A stretch of DNA of 50,457 bases from Anaerolineae bacterium (lineage in GTDB: Bacteria > Chloroflexota > Anaerolineae > UBA4142 > SHND01): positions 1-50,457 of the forward strand of contig JADZCJ010000009.1 of NCBI GenBank assembly GCA_020851635.1. Direction: 5' to 3'. The position numbers and the translations under genes were made by a program. The notes under the pieces were generated by a model, which was given only the letters and a program-made list of their open reading frames with translations, was not told the DNA's origin and made no database searches. Below, in pieces: positions 11,506 through 17,588 of the stretch (its first letter is position 1; every line of letters starts with the position of its first letter).

Positions 11506-13566
11506 CTACAAGTGCGCTTGCAGTTTCTCGGCAGCGCTGCGCGTCATGCCTTCAACCGTGAGGATTTCTTCGATGCTCGCGTCACGGATGGCTTCGAGCG
11601 AGCCGAATTTTACCAAAAGGGCGCGGCGGCGGCGCGGTCCAATGCCGGGGATGGCGTCCAGCTGAGAGTGCAGCCCCTTTTTGACGCGCAGCGAACGGTG
11701 ATAGGTGATGCCAAAGCGATGCGCTTCGTCCCGGATCCGCTGCAGGAGGTGGAGCGCTTGCGAGTGTTTGGGCAAGCGCAGGGAATCGGAACGGTTCGGA
11801 ACAAAAACCTCTTCTTGACGTTTTGCGAGCGAAATCAATTTTACGCCCTCGATCCCCATCTCGCGAAACACCTCTTCAGCCGCATTCAGCTGTCCTTTGC
11901 CGCCGTCAATAATGACCAGGTCGGGCATGCGCGCCCACGATTCGTCGTTCTTGCGTTCCGCCGTGCGGATGCCCTTGCTCAACGGAATTTTCGATTTGCG
12001 CTTTTTTGTGAGAGTTTCGGCGACTGCAGAGGACGGACCGCCAACCGCCGCCCGGGTTTCGGTTCCGTCCGCCGTCGGCGGGCTGTCCGGCGCTGCTTGA
12101 GCACTATCTGCCGCCGTCTGCGGTTCCGCTTTGGCCATCAATTCGATGTCGTCCTGCCATTCGCCCGCGCCCCGCGCGGCTTTTTGTGCGTCGTGATAAC
12201 GCTTGAAACGGCGTCGCAGCATTTCCTGCAAACTGGCGAAATCGTTTGCGCCAACGACTGATTTGATTTTGAATTTGCGATAGTCGCTCTTTTTTGCCGC
12301 GCCGTTTTCAAACACGACCATTGCGCCGACGGAATTTGTGCCTTGAATGTTTGAAATATCATAACATTCCATTCGAAGGGGCGGATTTTCCATTTCGAGC
12401 GCCTGCTGTAATTCTTCGACGGCTTGCAGATGCTTGGTCTTGTCCGCGAGCCACTGTTGTTTGATCGTGTCGAGGGTGATCCGCGCATTCTCTTCCGCCA
12501 TGTTCAGCAGTTCGCGCCCACCGTTGCCGTTGTGCGGCACGCGGATTGTCGTGGCTGCGCCCTTGTTTTGTTTGAGCCACGTTTCGATGATTTTGGCTTC
12601 GTCAATCATTTCGGGCAGCAGGATTTCGGGCGGCACATACGCTGCCTGATCGTAAAATTGCTGTACAAAGGAGGAAAGCACGTCGTCGTTGTTGGCGTGA
12701 GTGGCGCCTTCGAGCACAAAATATTCGCGCCCGAGCAGTTTGCCCGCGCGGATAAAAAAGACCTGGACGCAGGCATTGCCATCGTCTTTGGCAAAGGCGA
12801 TCACATCCTGGTCAATCATCTGCGGCGAAACAACTTTTTGATGTTCGGTGATGCGCGCGATCGCCTGCAGCTGGTCGCGATAGACGGCGGCGCGCTCAAA
12901 TTCCAGGTCCTCGGCTGCCTGCTGCAGTTTGCCGTGAATGTTTTCGGTGACCTGTTCGCTTTGCCCCTGCAAGAACTGCGAGAGCCGATCAATCATGCCG
13001 CGATACTCGTCGCGCGACACTGCGCCGATGCAGGGGGCAAGACACAGCCCAATGTCATAATACAAGCAGGCGCGGCGGTCCTTGCCCGTAATCTCCCGAT
13101 CACAGGTGAGATAGGGAAAGACTTTGCGTAGCGTGTCGAGCGTTTCGTGGACCGCCCACACGGCGGTGAACGGACCAAAATAGCGCGCCCCGTCGTCGTC
13201 CATGCGGCGGGTCATGAACACTTTGGGATAGTTGTCTTGCCAGGTGATCTTGATATAAGGGTAGGTCTTGGCGTCCTTGAGCCGAATGTTGTATTTGGGG
13301 CGATATTTCTTGATGAGATTGTTTTCGAGGACGAGCGCCTCGAGTTCGGTCTCGGTGACGATAAATTCAATGTGCTCGACATGCGCGGTGAGTGAAATCA
13401 CCTTGGCGTCAAATGCGTTGCCGTGATAATACGACCGGACGCGACTGCGCAGGTTCACCGCCTTGCCGACATAAATGATGGTCCCGTCGTCATTTTTCAT
13501 CAAATAGACGCCCGGTTTGGTCGGAAGGGTATCGAGGATTTGTTGAATCTCTGGTTTTGCAGGCAT
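11506..13566 (-). CDS. uvrC: UvrABC excinuclease subunit C
   Basis: Makes both incisions flanking bulky DNA lesions in nucleotide excision repair, acting on the UvrB-DNA complex. The 686-residue protein has the GIY-YIG nuclease (GVYLMKNDDG, IIYVGKAVNLRSRV), a UVR motif around residues 205-240 that binds UvrB, the RNase H-like second nuclease (YDISNIQG, LVIIDGGKGQL) and tandem helix-hairpin-helix motifs (IPGIGPRRRRALL). Residues about 459-543, inside the second nuclease domain, are a low-complexity Ala/Thr/Pro-rich insertion not usual in the family. The ATG overlaps the TAA of the upstream nucleotidyltransferase reading frame by one base, suggesting coupling. Confidence 0.96.
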   Translation of the reverse strand: MPAKPEIQQILDTLPTKPGVYLMKNDDGTIIYVGKAVNLRSRVRSYYHGNAFDAKVISLTAHVEHIEFIVTETELEALVLENNLIKKYRPKYNIRLKDAKTYPYIKITWQDNYPKVFMTRRMDDDGARYFGPFTAVWAVHETLDTLRKVFPYLTCDREITGKDRRACLYYDIGLCLAPCIGAVSRDEYRGMIDRLSQFLQGQSEQVTENIHGKLQQAAEDLEFERAAVYRDQLQAIARITEHQKVVSPQMIDQDVIAFAKDDGNACVQVFFIRAGKLLGREYFVLEGATHANNDDVLSSFVQQFYDQAAYVPPEILLPEMIDEAKIIETWLKQNKGAATTIRVPHNGNGGRELLNMAEENARITLDTIKQQWLADKTKHLQAVEELQQALEMENPPLRMECYDISNIQGTNSVGAMVVFENGAAKKSDYRKFKIKSVVGANDFASLQEMLRRRFKRYHDAQKAARGAGEWQDDIELMAKAEPQTAADSAQAAPDSPPTADGTETRAAVGGPSSAVAETLTKKRKSKIPLSKGIRTAERKNDESWARMPDLVIIDGGKGQLNAAEEVFREMGIEGVKLISLAKRQEEVFVPNRSDSLRLPKHSQALHLLQRIRDEAHRFGITYHRSLRVKKGLHSQLDAIPGIGPRRRRALLVKFGSLEAIRDASIEEILTVEGMTRSAAEKLQAHL

Positions 13567-14160
13567 TACTTGGTTTCGCCCAGGCGACGGTGATGTTCTT
13601 GGAGAATCTCCTCCCAGATTGGCTCTACTCCGGTCTCTCTGGCCCAGTATGAAATATAGTCCAGTTCAATCGTTTGTTGATGAGTTTCGAGTATCGCCAG
13701 AATGTCGCGCGGGTGCTTGGGCATTCTGCCCTCGTTGAAATATTTGAGTTTGTACAGGATCACATCCTCCGGCGAGTACATGATTGCTGATTCGCCCGAT
13801 TCCTGGGCAAAAGGAACGGTGCGCACTCGCTCAAACACAGAAATCTCCAGAGGCGTCTTCCCGACCAGAAAAAAAACCTACCTTGAACCCGCTTGCCGCG
13901 TCAATTACATTAAATGGAGTTTGCCAGATTACGGTATCAAGGATTGCATCCATATTGACATAATAGCCCAGCGCTGTGAACGCCTTGATGAATTTTTCCG
14001 AATCGGCAAGCTCCATCTTGATGGAAATATCAATATCGTTCGTTGTACGATATGCTCCATAAGCGCTGCTTGCAACCGAGCCCCCAATGGCATATGGAAT
14101 GCTCAGCTCCTGCAACGTCGCGAGAACCGAGCGCGTAAATTCTCGAAACGATCTAGTCAT
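13566..14160 (-). pseudogene. Nucleotidyltransferase, frameshifted at a T8 tract
   Basis: Two overlapping frames make one nucleotidyltransferase-fold protein. The first (ATG at 14160) carries GGSVASSAYGAYRTTNDIDI, the GS...DxD active-site core, and ends early after KVGFFSGRED. The second begins ...FLVGKTPLEISVFERVRT and continues with YSPEDVILYKLKYF, the usual C-terminal part. Dropping one T from the minus-strand T8 (13869-13876) joins them as KVGFFLVGKTPLEIS, which fits the family well. The tract could be a true mutation, a slippage or phase-variation site, or a base-calling error. A small partner gene overlaps its start by eight bases. Members of this family are often antitoxin-like partners, but no toxin is proven here. 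Confidence 0.8.
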
Positions 14161-14401
14161 TTGTGGTGAGGATTCTCCGGCTGATACGCGCGTCGATCTC
14201 ATCCTCGGTCAGGTTTGGATGATAGTGGCGTTCCACATTTGAAGCGAGCTGTCGCATAAAATCGCACATCTCAAACATCAGGGCAAGACATTCGGTCGGC
14301 GAAAGCCGCGCAATCACGGCAAGCTGGCGGGAATCCAGTTCGTCGGAAGCCATTCGGACGAGTTCACGTGTTGTCAGTGGTGGGTTGAGCAAAAGGGACA
14401 T
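14153..14401 (-). CDS. Small protein paired with nucleotidyltransferase
   Basis: An 82-residue helical protein with the pattern LSPTECLALMFEMCDFMRQL followed by HPNLTEDEIDARI. I know this pattern only as an uncharacterised small partner commonly encoded beside nucleotidyltransferase genes. The ATG at 14401 follows a TGCTATAAT box by about nine bases, so the mRNA may be nearly leaderless. Its stop overlaps the nucleotidyltransferase start by eight bases, showing they form a unit. A toxin/antitoxin role is a guess from this pairing. Confidence 0.65.
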   Translation of the reverse strand: MSLLLNPPLTTRELVRMASDELDSRQLAVIARLSPTECLALMFEMCDFMRQLASNVERHYHPNLTEDEIDARISRRILTTND

Positions 14402-15246: not shown

Positions 15247-16008
15247 TTATGCTGACGCCGCCGGTTCATACGGAGGACCCGGCAGATAACTCGGCGGCTC
15301 GTTGGTCGGTGGCGGAGCGGGGGGCAGTATGTCCGAGTCGGTCGGCGTCAGATTGCTGCGCGCGACCTGCCCAAACAAATGTGCCGCGACGAGCGCAGCC
15401 CAAAAAGTGGTGAAAAACACGCCGATGAAACAGGCAATCACGCCAAACCCCGCCACAAAATTCGCAACCAGAGCTAAAAGGAGCGCAATAATATAATTGC
15501 CGGGATTGGCTTTGATAAAACCCCAGATCCCGCGAAAATCCCAGAACGTGTTGATCCGGTTGTTTAGCGCAAACGTGGTTATCGGGGCATAGATAAATAT
15601 ATTGATCGCAATCCCCACGATAAACATGAGGCAGTAAAGGCATGCCAACAGCACCCCGCCGATCCCGCCCATGGCATCATTTGCGCCGCCGCTCCCGTCC
15701 GCCGCCGCGCTGATCCCGGTGATTGCGATCGCGCTGCAGCACAAGAGGAGAAGGAGGGGGCTTGCCCAAATCAAGACGCCGACGATAGCATACAGCCCCT
15801 TGACAAACATATCGCCGATGTTGGTCCATTCCGGCAGGGGGGCGGGGTCGCCGTCATGAACGCGCTTGGTCACTGCCAAACAATAGCCGACGAGCAGAGG
15901 AATTGGGATAATAAAGGTGGACAACAAGACGACGATGGCGCCAATGGCTATCTTGGCGATCCAGTCCTTGTCTTCGAACATAAATGTAAACGACTTGCCG
16001 ACATCCAT
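15247..16008 (-). CDS. DUF4013 family membrane protein
   Basis: A 253-residue protein starting MDVGKSFTFMFEDKDWIAKI, the typical DUF4013 beginning, with about five or six membrane helices and a Pro-rich cytoplasmic tail (PPAPPPTNEPP). The soluble loop HDGDPAPLPEWTNIGDMFVKG is also typical. It has a very strong AAGGAGG ribosome-binding site, and a TGCTATAAT box about 95 bases upstream is the likely promoter. The function of the family is unknown; it is common in archaea and Chloroflexota. Confidence 0.82.
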   Translation of the reverse strand: MDVGKSFTFMFEDKDWIAKIAIGAIVVLLSTFIIPIPLLVGYCLAVTKRVHDGDPAPLPEWTNIGDMFVKGLYAIVGVLIWASPLLLLLCCSAIAITGISAAADGSGGANDAMGGIGGVLLACLYCLMFIVGIAINIFIYAPITTFALNNRINTFWDFRGIWGFIKANPGNYIIALLLALVANFVAGFGVIACFIGVFFTTFWAALVAAHLFGQVARSNLTPTDSDILPPAPPPTNEPPSYLPGPPYEPAASA

Positions 16009-16236: not shown

Positions 16237-16309
16237 TGCCGAGACGCAGAATCGAACTGCGGACACTGCGGTTTTCAGCCGCATGCTCTACCAACTGAGC
16301 TATCTCGGC
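16237..16309 (-). tRNA. tRNA-Phe (GAA anticodon)
   Basis: A 73-base cloverleaf read leftward: acceptor GCCGAGA/TCTCGGC, D-stem GCTC/GAGC, anticodon stem TGCGG/CCGCA with loop CTGAAAA (anticodon GAA), a five-base variable loop, T-stem CGCAG/CTGCG with loop TTCGATT, and discriminator A. CCA is not encoded. It has its own promoter and terminator. This is the tRNA that would be sensed by the Phe T-box at 48990-49250. Confidence 0.97.
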
Positions 16310-16323
16310 GACAGTGGAAAGCC

Positions 16324-16351
16324 ATTTTACGCAGATTAGGGTGGATGTCAA
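16324..16351 (-). promoter_or_regulatory. tRNA-Phe promoter
   Basis: TTGACA (16351-16346), 16-bp spacer, TAAAAT (16329-16324), with the start expected about ten bases before the tRNA 5' end. The -35 overlaps the T-run of the upstream terminator. Confidence 0.75.
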
Positions 16352-16399
16352 AAAAAACGCGCTGCCCGTTCATCGCCGATGATGAACAGAACAGCGCGT
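16350..16399 (-). terminator. Terminator upstream of the tRNA-Phe promoter
   Basis: ACGCGCTG/CAGCGCGT outer stem (8 bp) and GTTCATC/GATGAAC inner stem (7 bp), followed on the minus strand by eight T. It ends a leftward transcript that has no recognised coding gene. Confidence 0.8.
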
Positions 16400-16585
16400 G
16401 GCTCACGGTCGTGGTTACCTCCCCGCGCAGACGCCGACGCGAGGAGATAACCGTTCGAAAAGGAGGAGAAGAAGTATGTTCCGCGATTTTATAGGTAAAA
16501 AAAAGACGAGCTGCTGACCCGCCAGGGTCAAAGCCCGTGATCTGTCTCGGCAATATTTGCATCGGGGCGAGAACCGCCCATAAAC
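16400..16585 (-). other. Structured non-coding segment downstream of the riboswitch terminator
   Basis: No coding gene with a credible start is seen. A 15-bp stem (16413-16427 with 16438-16452, two G-U pairs when read as minus-strand RNA) contains GGGGAGG. A second hairpin (TGACCC at 16515-16520 with GGGTCA at 16525-16530) is followed on the minus strand by eight T (16504-16497), a terminator-like arrangement. The structure suggests small RNA or leader elements, but I cannot assign a family. Confidence 0.5.
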
Positions 16586-16615
16586 AAAAATGACCACAGG
16601 TCAAATCTGTGGTCA
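16586..16615 (-). terminator. Terminator of the c-di-AMP riboswitch
   Basis: A perfect 9-bp stem (TGACCACAG at 16591-16599 with CTGTGGTCA at 16607-16615), loop of seven, then five T on the minus strand. It lies directly after the aptamer and is the likely expression platform. Confidence 0.85.
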
Positions 16616-16621
16616 GACAGA

Positions 16622-16771
16622 CTTGTCCCCTTCAGTGCCTACGAAGTTAGCTGTCGGGTTAGAACTGAAAGATGTTCTTTTGAATGTTCGGCGCGAGAAA
16701 CGCCGCATTCGAATTCACCCCGTTAGTGGTTCCTCCGCTCTCTGCTTGCTTGCAGAGATTCGGCTGACAAG
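16622..16771 (-). promoter_or_regulatory. Cyclic-di-AMP (ydaO/yuaA) riboswitch
   Basis: Read leftward, the RNA contains the conserved ydaO blocks in order: CAGCCGAATC, GCGGAGGAACCAC, GGGGTGAAT, AACCCGACAGCTAACTTCG and GTAGGC, then GAAGGGGAC. P1 forms from CTTGTC (16771-16766) and GACAAG at the far end. The class senses c-di-AMP and usually terminates transcription of cell-wall, osmolyte or potassium genes. Here a promoter (16846-16874) lies upstream and a terminator (16586-16615) just downstream, so the device looks complete. No coding gene follows on this strand until DUF4013 at 16008, beyond two more terminators and tRNA-Phe, so its target is unclear. Confidence 0.93.
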
Positions 16772-16845
16772 GACTATTTGGTTGTTTGTAATTCCGGTCG
16801 CGCTCGACAAACGTTTGTTGTTTGCGACGCTAACCCTACACGCGT

Positions 16846-16874
16846 TGTATATCACGAATCCAAATGCTTGTCAA
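16846..16874 (-). promoter_or_regulatory. Promoter for the c-di-AMP riboswitch transcript
   Basis: Perfect TTGACA (16874-16869), 17-bp spacer, TATACA (16851-16846). The start would fall near 16839, about 70 bases before the aptamer. Confidence 0.8.
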
Positions 16875-17309: not shown

Positions 17310-17588
17310 TTACCAATACGGATTATAGTGGTTCCATTGCGGAGCGGGAGAAAACGTGTTGTACGGATATTTGTACCAGCCCGATACCGGATAGGGCGGA
17401 ACAAAGCGGTATGAGCAGTTCCAAGAACTGTACATACAAACCCTATTGTAGCCCGAACCCGGAAAGACGTATCCGTAGCCATGGCCACCATAGCCCCACG
17501 GTCCGTCCGCCTGTGCCGTCGCTGCGATGGGCGCCACGACCGTAATCAGCAATGCCAGCGCAAAGACGACAAGTAGTGCTCGCTTCAT
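17310..17588 (-). CDS. Small secreted Gly/Tyr/Pro-rich protein
   Basis: A 92-residue protein with a clear Sec signal peptide (MKR, hydrophobic stretch, ATAQA cleavage site near residue 27). The mature part is rich in Gly, Tyr, Trp and Pro (WGYGGHGYGYVF, WNHYNPYW) and has two Cys (CMYSSWNC) that could form a disulfide. It has a strong GAGGAGGTGA ribosome-binding site and a 5' leader with a stable hairpin (17621-17656). I do not recognise the family. The composition suggests a surface or matrix component, which is inference. It is a lone gene with its own promoter region and terminator. Confidence 0.78.
   Translation of the reverse strand: MKRALLVVFALALLITVVAPIAATAQADGPWGYGGHGYGYVFPGSGYNRVCMYSSWNCSYRFVPPYPVSGWYKYPYNTFSPAPQWNHYNPYW

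Follow-up and report, generated by a model that had tools for sequence, protein, structure and literature searches.

A c-di-AMP riboswitch in the Anaerolineae that probably controls a conserved small RNA predicted to repress ABC solute-binding lipoprotein mRNAs

In a genome of the class Anaerolineae (Chloroflexota), a c-di-AMP riboswitch is followed by a conserved non-coding element, and we consider it probable that this riboswitch, acting as an OFF switch, controls a dedicated small regulatory RNA (sRNA) which represses the mRNAs of ABC solute-binding lipoproteins. With somewhat less assurance, we favor the broader reading that an anti-Shine–Dalgarno sRNA found across the class, normally made from an OmpR/PhoB-type promoter, has been captured in one order by the riboswitch, such that a second messenger would directly set the translation of many ABC importers via a base-pairing sRNA. 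The window, i.e., the whole stretch of DNA that was analyzed (50,457 nt), belongs to a 5.8 Mb genome (G000), in which the aptamer is present as a single copy. An earlier note on this DNA, made from the sequence alone, had described an orphan riboswitch with no target gene, either because the target was lost or because the riboswitch controls a short RNA or a tiny peptide. The parts of the locus are as follows.

16846-16874, minus strand: promoter of the riboswitch–sRNA unit, TTGACA (16874-16869), 17-nt spacer, TATACA (16851-16846), read from the sequence
16621-16775, minus strand: c-di-AMP riboswitch aptamer, RF00379 (cmscan)
16603-16624, minus strand: predicted antiterminator, AAGUCUGU (16624-16617) with ACAGAUUU (16610-16603) (folding)
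16586-16615, minus strand: terminator 1, the riboswitch terminator, with its U tract (hairpin 16615-16591), present in 16/16 genomes
16497-16538, minus strand: terminator-like hairpin 2 with a U8 tract (hairpin about 16538-16505)
16455-16474, minus strand: invariant tract of the putative sRNA, CUUCUUCUCCUCCUUUUCGA, the predicted seed complementary to Shine–Dalgarno sites (alignment, folding)
16413-16452, minus strand: hairpin of the putative sRNA, 15 bp, loop UCGGCGUCUG (covariation)
16350-16399, minus strand: terminator 3, the predicted 3′ end of the sRNA unit, with a U8 tract (hairpin 16399-16357; folding)
16237-16351, minus strand: separate tRNA-Phe unit, promoter TTGACA-16-TAAAAT (16351-16324), tRNA-Phe(GAA) (16309-16237)
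15247-16008, minus strand: DUF4013 membrane protein (PF13197, 4.4e-27, Pfam), with its own TATAAT box (16110-16105)

The earlier note had recognized a complete riboswitch device, and its promoter, aptamer and terminator are all borne out. The Rfam search that the note had proposed returned a match to the RF00379 (ydaO/yuaA) aptamer on the minus strand (16775-16621) at 75.4 bits, against a gathering score of 38, with an E value of 8.4e-16 and spanning model positions 1-134, i.e., the complete model. TTGACA-17-TATA boxes lie at the matching place in relatives, and an Rfam scan of the window stretch found no second aptamer and no other riboswitch. The predicted antiterminator shares sequence with both of its neighbors: its 5′ arm reaches into the aptamer 3′ end, and its 3′ arm doubles as the 5′ arm of terminator 1. 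The two further terminator-like hairpins that the note had pointed out are indeed followed by U tracts, and the stretch 16620-16320 folds 6.6 sd below shuffles. Hairpin 2 is found in five of the six species of the genus of the window and is missing in G003, the sixth, and outside the genus; it has a UUUGACC segment in common with terminator 1, which suggests that it arose by duplication or acts as a second conditional terminator.

An adjacent downstream protein gene under control, which is a usual feature of RF00379 riboswitches although not part of the aptamer definition, is absent here. The interval from the riboswitch to the tRNA contains no conserved open reading frame (ORF), and there is no coding gene before DUF4013, either in the window or in relatives, as the note had stated for the window. 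DUF4013 and tRNA-Phe were considered as riboswitch targets and rejected, for both have promoters of their own, which for tRNA-Phe had also been noted earlier: the TATAAT box of DUF4013 is found in G001 and G003 as well, and the tRNA-Phe unit, whose −35 box is overlapped by the U8 tract of terminator 3, ends at a terminator of its own (16197-16181). Two other features of the window may be recorded. Adjacent ORFs at 14202-13831 and 13838-13566 (minus strand, 13566-14202 together) resemble one nucleotidyltransferase-type gene split by a frameshift, and a short secreted Gly/Tyr-rich protein without a Pfam match is encoded at 17310-17588 (minus strand) with a strong terminator of its own (17164-17137); a similar gene sits upstream of the riboswitch in G003.

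What the earlier note overlooked is a conserved element between terminators 2 and 3. Relatives were searched with the stretch 16880-16230, and the best-kept parts outside the genus are the 3′ part of the aptamer, tRNA-Phe and the segment 16476-16413, whose 64 nt show 92% identity in G013. The element itself (16474-16413, minus strand) consists of the invariant tract CUUCUUCUCCUCCUUUUCG and a hairpin and is closed by terminator 3. The CUUCUUCUCCUCCUUUUCG sequence, i.e., the first 19 positions of the tract, is identical in all 16 element-bearing genomes of the order, at least 15 nt of the tract hardly vary throughout the class, and folding predicts the tract to be unpaired, in a class member too. 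The hairpin shows compensatory double changes in 12 of its 15 pairs in the order alignment, with a covariation score that was reached by 0/500 shuffles and far lower scores in slid controls. In a class-wide alignment of 35 matches, which also takes in matches from outside the class, 97.7% of the cells are paired and double changes occur in 15/15 pairs; this alignment was fitted to the structure, which favors pairing, yet stems unrelated in sequence still pair. A single strand conserved in sequence next to a hairpin conserved only in pairing is the usual signature of a base-pairing sRNA, and the element has the other attributes of a trans-acting sRNA as well, namely an independent non-coding unit, a conserved unpaired seed and a terminator. 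No Rfam 15 family matched the element in the window stretch, either at gathering score or at E values up to 10, and none matched in relatives. By these comparisons, the element is a small-RNA family new to Rfam and found across the class Anaerolineae. Some exact 19-mer matches in unrelated phyla were dismissed on inspection as apparently coding, pyrimidine-rich DNA without the hairpin.

The linkage between aptamer and element was followed with a covariance model of the element built from the order (R1), which found one strong copy each in 16 of the 20 order genomes. The RF00379 aptamer is present in exactly the same 16 genomes and absent from the other 4, and in all 16 the element lies just downstream of the riboswitch terminator with no gene between. 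In 10 of the 16, including G003 of the genus of the window, the distance from the end of the terminator 1 stem to the tract is only 11-21 nt, which leaves no room for a separate promoter, save inside the terminator, suggesting that aptamer and sRNA part belong to one transcription unit. The other five genomes of the genus, G000 included, carry hairpin 2 inside a gap of 101-153 nt, in which no convincing promoter was seen by eye. A tRNA-Phe follows the element in 11 of the 16 genomes and is missing in 5, showing that tRNA-Phe is not the riboswitch target. The note would have given up its proposal if relatives had a conserved gene directly downstream; this was looked for, and no protein gene is there. 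The existence of the sRNA and its coupling to the riboswitch are well supported by this comparative evidence, and the note's idea that the riboswitch controls a short RNA gains strong support from the covariation, from riboswitch-free copies elsewhere in the class and from the lack of room for a promoter; the label "orphan" does not hold, given the same non-coding element directly downstream in every aptamer-bearing genome of the order. Second copies of the c-di-AMP riboswitch also exist in order genomes and in G030 (L144, L145, L146, L147, L148, L163), where protein genes follow wherever the sequence is readable, as ordinary cis targets; read from sequence, these neighbors are an ABC sugar permease (G003), an ion-transporter-like gene (G005) and a respiratory-complex-like operon (G019, G030). 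Beyond the order, the aptamer adjoins the element in G048 (29 bits) and more weakly in G030 (18.7 bits).

Elsewhere in the class, the element occurs without the riboswitch. R1 matches, some of them weak, were found in 147 of 396 class genomes, and a wider, class-built model (R2), which was applied to a phylum sample, matched 31 of the 38 class genomes in it. Outside the class, R2 matched 10 of roughly 260 genomes, mostly weakly, and the element was therefore not taken as a phylum-wide feature. In 33 of the 40 class loci that were inspected, CGT boxes at 11-bp spacing lie upstream, typically CGTAGGGAAAG-CGTAGGTTTTG-CGTCCAG, mostly at a distance of 60-90 nt from the tract and immediately preceding a −10 box (e.g., L110-L123, L124-L127, L130, L131 and L133). 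In most class loci, the sRNA appears to be made from a promoter of its own, which usually carries CGTAGG direct repeats of 11 bp. Direct repeats of the CGTAGG type resemble the binding sites of OmpR/PhoB-family response regulators, and the repeats likely mark a regulon of this family (phosphate, potassium or envelope stress). Several families have a structured leader in place of the repeats, about 20-100 nt upstream of the tract, in which GGCAUGG...CCAUGCC arms are found together with recurring GGCAUCC and AAGGUCA segments (L129, L150, L151, L153, L159, L160); this leader has no Rfam match and is possibly another riboswitch or attenuator for the same sRNA. Two tandem sRNA copies about 260 nt apart are found in G184 (L122:1187-1240 and L122:1501-1556, minus strand), and several genomes of family f29 contain two or three matches. 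A strong copy (56.5 bits) with the CU tract, a pairing hairpin and a U tract, but with no c-di-AMP riboswitch found beside it, is present in Candidatus Gottesmanbacteria (Patescibacteria; L067:3798-3858, plus strand), for which horizontal transfer, deep homology and a binning error are alternatives.

The tract is complementary to ribosome-binding sites of the form ...GGAGGAGA..., and its complement CGAAAAGGAGGAGAAGAAG amounts to a strong ribosome-binding site that includes a purine spacer. Within 2 mismatches of AAAAGGAGGAGAAGAAG, the whole genome of the window contains only two other sites, both of which are start regions of ABC solute-binding lipoproteins (Peripla_BP_4 and Peripla_BP_6 by Pfam); a further such site in G002 reads TTTCGAAAAGGAGGAGGAGAAGAAGATG. 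A search of eight genomes for AAAGGAGGAGA-N2-9-ATG placed solute-binding proteins at 17 of 28 non-self sites, 2 of these assignments being by close similarity to a Pfam-searched protein, and the 17 come from unrelated Pfam families (SBP_bac_1, 3, 5, 6 and 8, Peripla_BP_4 and 6, and Bmp), whereas the equally strong AAAGGAGGTGA precedes solute-binding proteins at only 1 of 26 sites. In 1.75 Mb of the genome of the window, sampled regardless of content (1,339 ORFs, with gene starts set by a simple rule rather than a gene finder), GGAGGAG stands ahead of 13/63 lipobox genes vs. 7/1,276 others (p = 9e-14), and most of the lipobox genes with GGAGGAG that were checked belong to solute-binding families by Pfam. 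GGAGGT, GGAGGC and GGAGGG show no enrichment before lipobox genes in the same sample.

The predicted energy of the duplex with the sRNA is −19 kcal/mol for solute-binding genes vs. −10.4 kcal/mol for the rest, a difference that holds after correction for Shine–Dalgarno strength, with the solute-binding set partly defined by motif-found proteins. The same set was used for the flanks of the core, where the observed effect was reached by 0/150 random left flanks and 4/150 shuffled flanks. Since the set is partly motif-derived, the lipobox test is the cleaner one. Complementary sites thus lie at the start regions of a coherent gene set, more weakly so in other families, from which ten sRNA-bearing genomes gave a weak enrichment of about 3/11. 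Genomes lacking the sRNA contain 9 AAAGGAGGAGA starts in about 34 Mb, compared with 33 in about 47 Mb with the sRNA, and 3 of the 8 usable gene starts in the former still belong to solute-binding proteins. Given this persistence and the weak enrichment in other families, part of the solute-binding gene preference for GGAGGAGA may be generic, as a property of these genes. The action of the sRNA in trans and its targets are predictions.

A mechanism can be proposed on this basis. In G000, G009 and G011, a transcript that halts short of the terminator 1 3′ arm folds as the antiterminator, in which the strand next to the lowest helix of the aptamer pairs with the 5′ arm of the terminator; these parts are kept in all 16 genomes, and in folding either the antiterminator or the terminator can form, but not both. 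Because antiterminator folding uses the 5′ arm of terminator 1, ligand binding should favor termination. OFF logic is established for c-di-AMP riboswitches: it has been measured for B. thuringiensis kdpFABC, where c-di-AMP drops under potassium limitation (PMC6488665). At high c-di-AMP, the ligand would stabilize the aptamer, terminator 1 would form and transcription would end, whereas at low c-di-AMP the antiterminator would form and the polymerase would read through into the sRNA, i.e., the CU-rich seed, the hairpin and terminator 3. In five of the six species of the genus, hairpin 2 would also have to be passed. The sRNA would then pair via CUUCUUCUCCUCCUUUU with the ribosome-binding sites of GGAGGAG(A) mRNAs, chiefly those of ABC solute-binding lipoproteins, and block the translation of these ABC-importer messages, a job like that of AbcR and GcvB. 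In this scheme, the switch direction and the read-through are inferred, as are the action in trans, the repression and the part that a chaperone might play; the sRNA could also be processed or act on a protein.

That last point leads to the strongest of the competing explanations, in which the riboswitch still gates the sRNA, but the sRNA binds a protein in the manner of EutX/Rli55, or acts as a general ribosome-binding decoy, rather than pairing with importer mRNAs. There is precedent for such a role, as Rli55 and EutX sequester EutV (PMC8383071), and a tract in which at least 15 nt are nearly invariant class-wide exceeds the needs of a short seed. However, the complementary sites cluster strongly ahead of solute-binding lipoprotein genes, the flanks beyond CCUCCUU contribute, as seen with the random and shuffled flanks, and the GGAGGT, GGAGGC and GGAGGG sites lack enrichment, all of which make this explanation unlikely. 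The strict linkage to the aptamer in the order would also agree with a cis-acting extra part of the riboswitch expression platform in place of a trans RNA, but across the class the element is found without any aptamer, directly behind its own promoter boxes, and no protein gene is consistently downstream; we regard this reading as quite improbable.

Even less credit is due to a riboswitch remnant, in which the protein target was lost, as the earlier note had suggested, and the tandem terminators merely insulate tRNA-Phe. The absence of a downstream coding gene and the protein genes behind other aptamer copies in the order fit a remnant, whereas the retention of aptamer, terminator and element together in 16/16 aptamer-bearing genomes does not, nor do the five among them that lack a downstream tRNA-Phe. 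A tiny peptide, which the note had offered as another kind of product, was considered on the plus strand (AAAAGGAGG, then MFRDFIGKKKTSC at 16476-16517); it draws on a strong Shine–Dalgarno-like sequence at 16458-16466 (plus strand), but this sequence is the reverse complement of the CU tract, neither the ATG nor the frame is kept in relatives, and the hairpin co-varies as an RNA stem, such that a peptide product was rejected and is barely conceivable to us. The preferred reading therefore remains a riboswitch-controlled sRNA that pairs with importer mRNAs.

If this reading is true, one aptamer gives c-di-AMP translational control over a whole nutrient-importer regulon, while riboswitches usually regulate adjacent genes in cis and few act via a trans RNA. 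With sister families placing one conserved sRNA under different controllers, the system would be a clear example of how regulation is rewired while the sRNA is kept, in a phylum in which small RNAs are almost unstudied; two large ncRNA-discovery papers do not mention Chloroflexota. The locus is also a warning that "orphan" riboswitches without a downstream gene may have a non-coding target. Neither an sRNA controlled by a c-di-AMP riboswitch nor the present sRNA family came up in the open-access papers searched, which are an incomplete set.

Trans-acting riboswitch RNAs and anti-Shine–Dalgarno sRNAs are already known, and what is new is the combination of a c-di-AMP riboswitch with an sRNA, plus the sRNA family itself. 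GcvB of enterobacteria represses many ABC-importer binding proteins, and Yfr1 of cyanobacteria has the layout of a hairpin, an unpaired CU-rich seed and a terminator hairpin. The seeds and lineages of both differ from those of the sRNA described here, with homology compared through Rfam alone. Relative to RF00379 riboswitches such as that of B. thuringiensis kdpFABC (PMC6488665), the aptamer, the intrinsic-terminator platform and the predicted OFF logic are alike, whereas the usual controlled protein gene appears to be replaced here by a non-coding RNA. Among cyclic-dinucleotide riboswitches, one for c-di-GMP has already been reported to be followed by terminators in tandem (PMC11218506).

The known trans-acting riboswitch RNAs, EutX/Rli55 with B12 and SreA/SreB with SAM (PMC8383071, PMC7266159), are alike in that the making of a trans RNA, or the form it takes, depends on a riboswitch. 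The ligand here is c-di-AMP instead, and regulation would fall to a separate sRNA family that is widely conserved and has its own promoter elsewhere; moreover, the sRNA here is predicted to pair with many mRNAs, whereas a protein is the partner of EutX and Rli55, and SreA is nothing but the riboswitch in its terminated form. There is also a likeness to AbcR1/AbcR2 of alpha-proteobacteria (PMC3712013), in that an anti-Shine–Dalgarno motif is exposed (UCCUCCC there, UCUCCUCCUUUU here) and that mRNAs of ABC solute-binding proteins are targets, as predicted here; AbcR1 of Sinorhizobium, which exposes UCCUCCC, represses livK (PMC3712013). The two belong to different phyla, and a comparison with Rfam models alone gave no match hinting at homology with the element. 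The regulator named for AbcR is LsrB, of the LysR type (PMC8844928), whereas the sRNA described here would be under the control of either a riboswitch or a response-regulator-type promoter.
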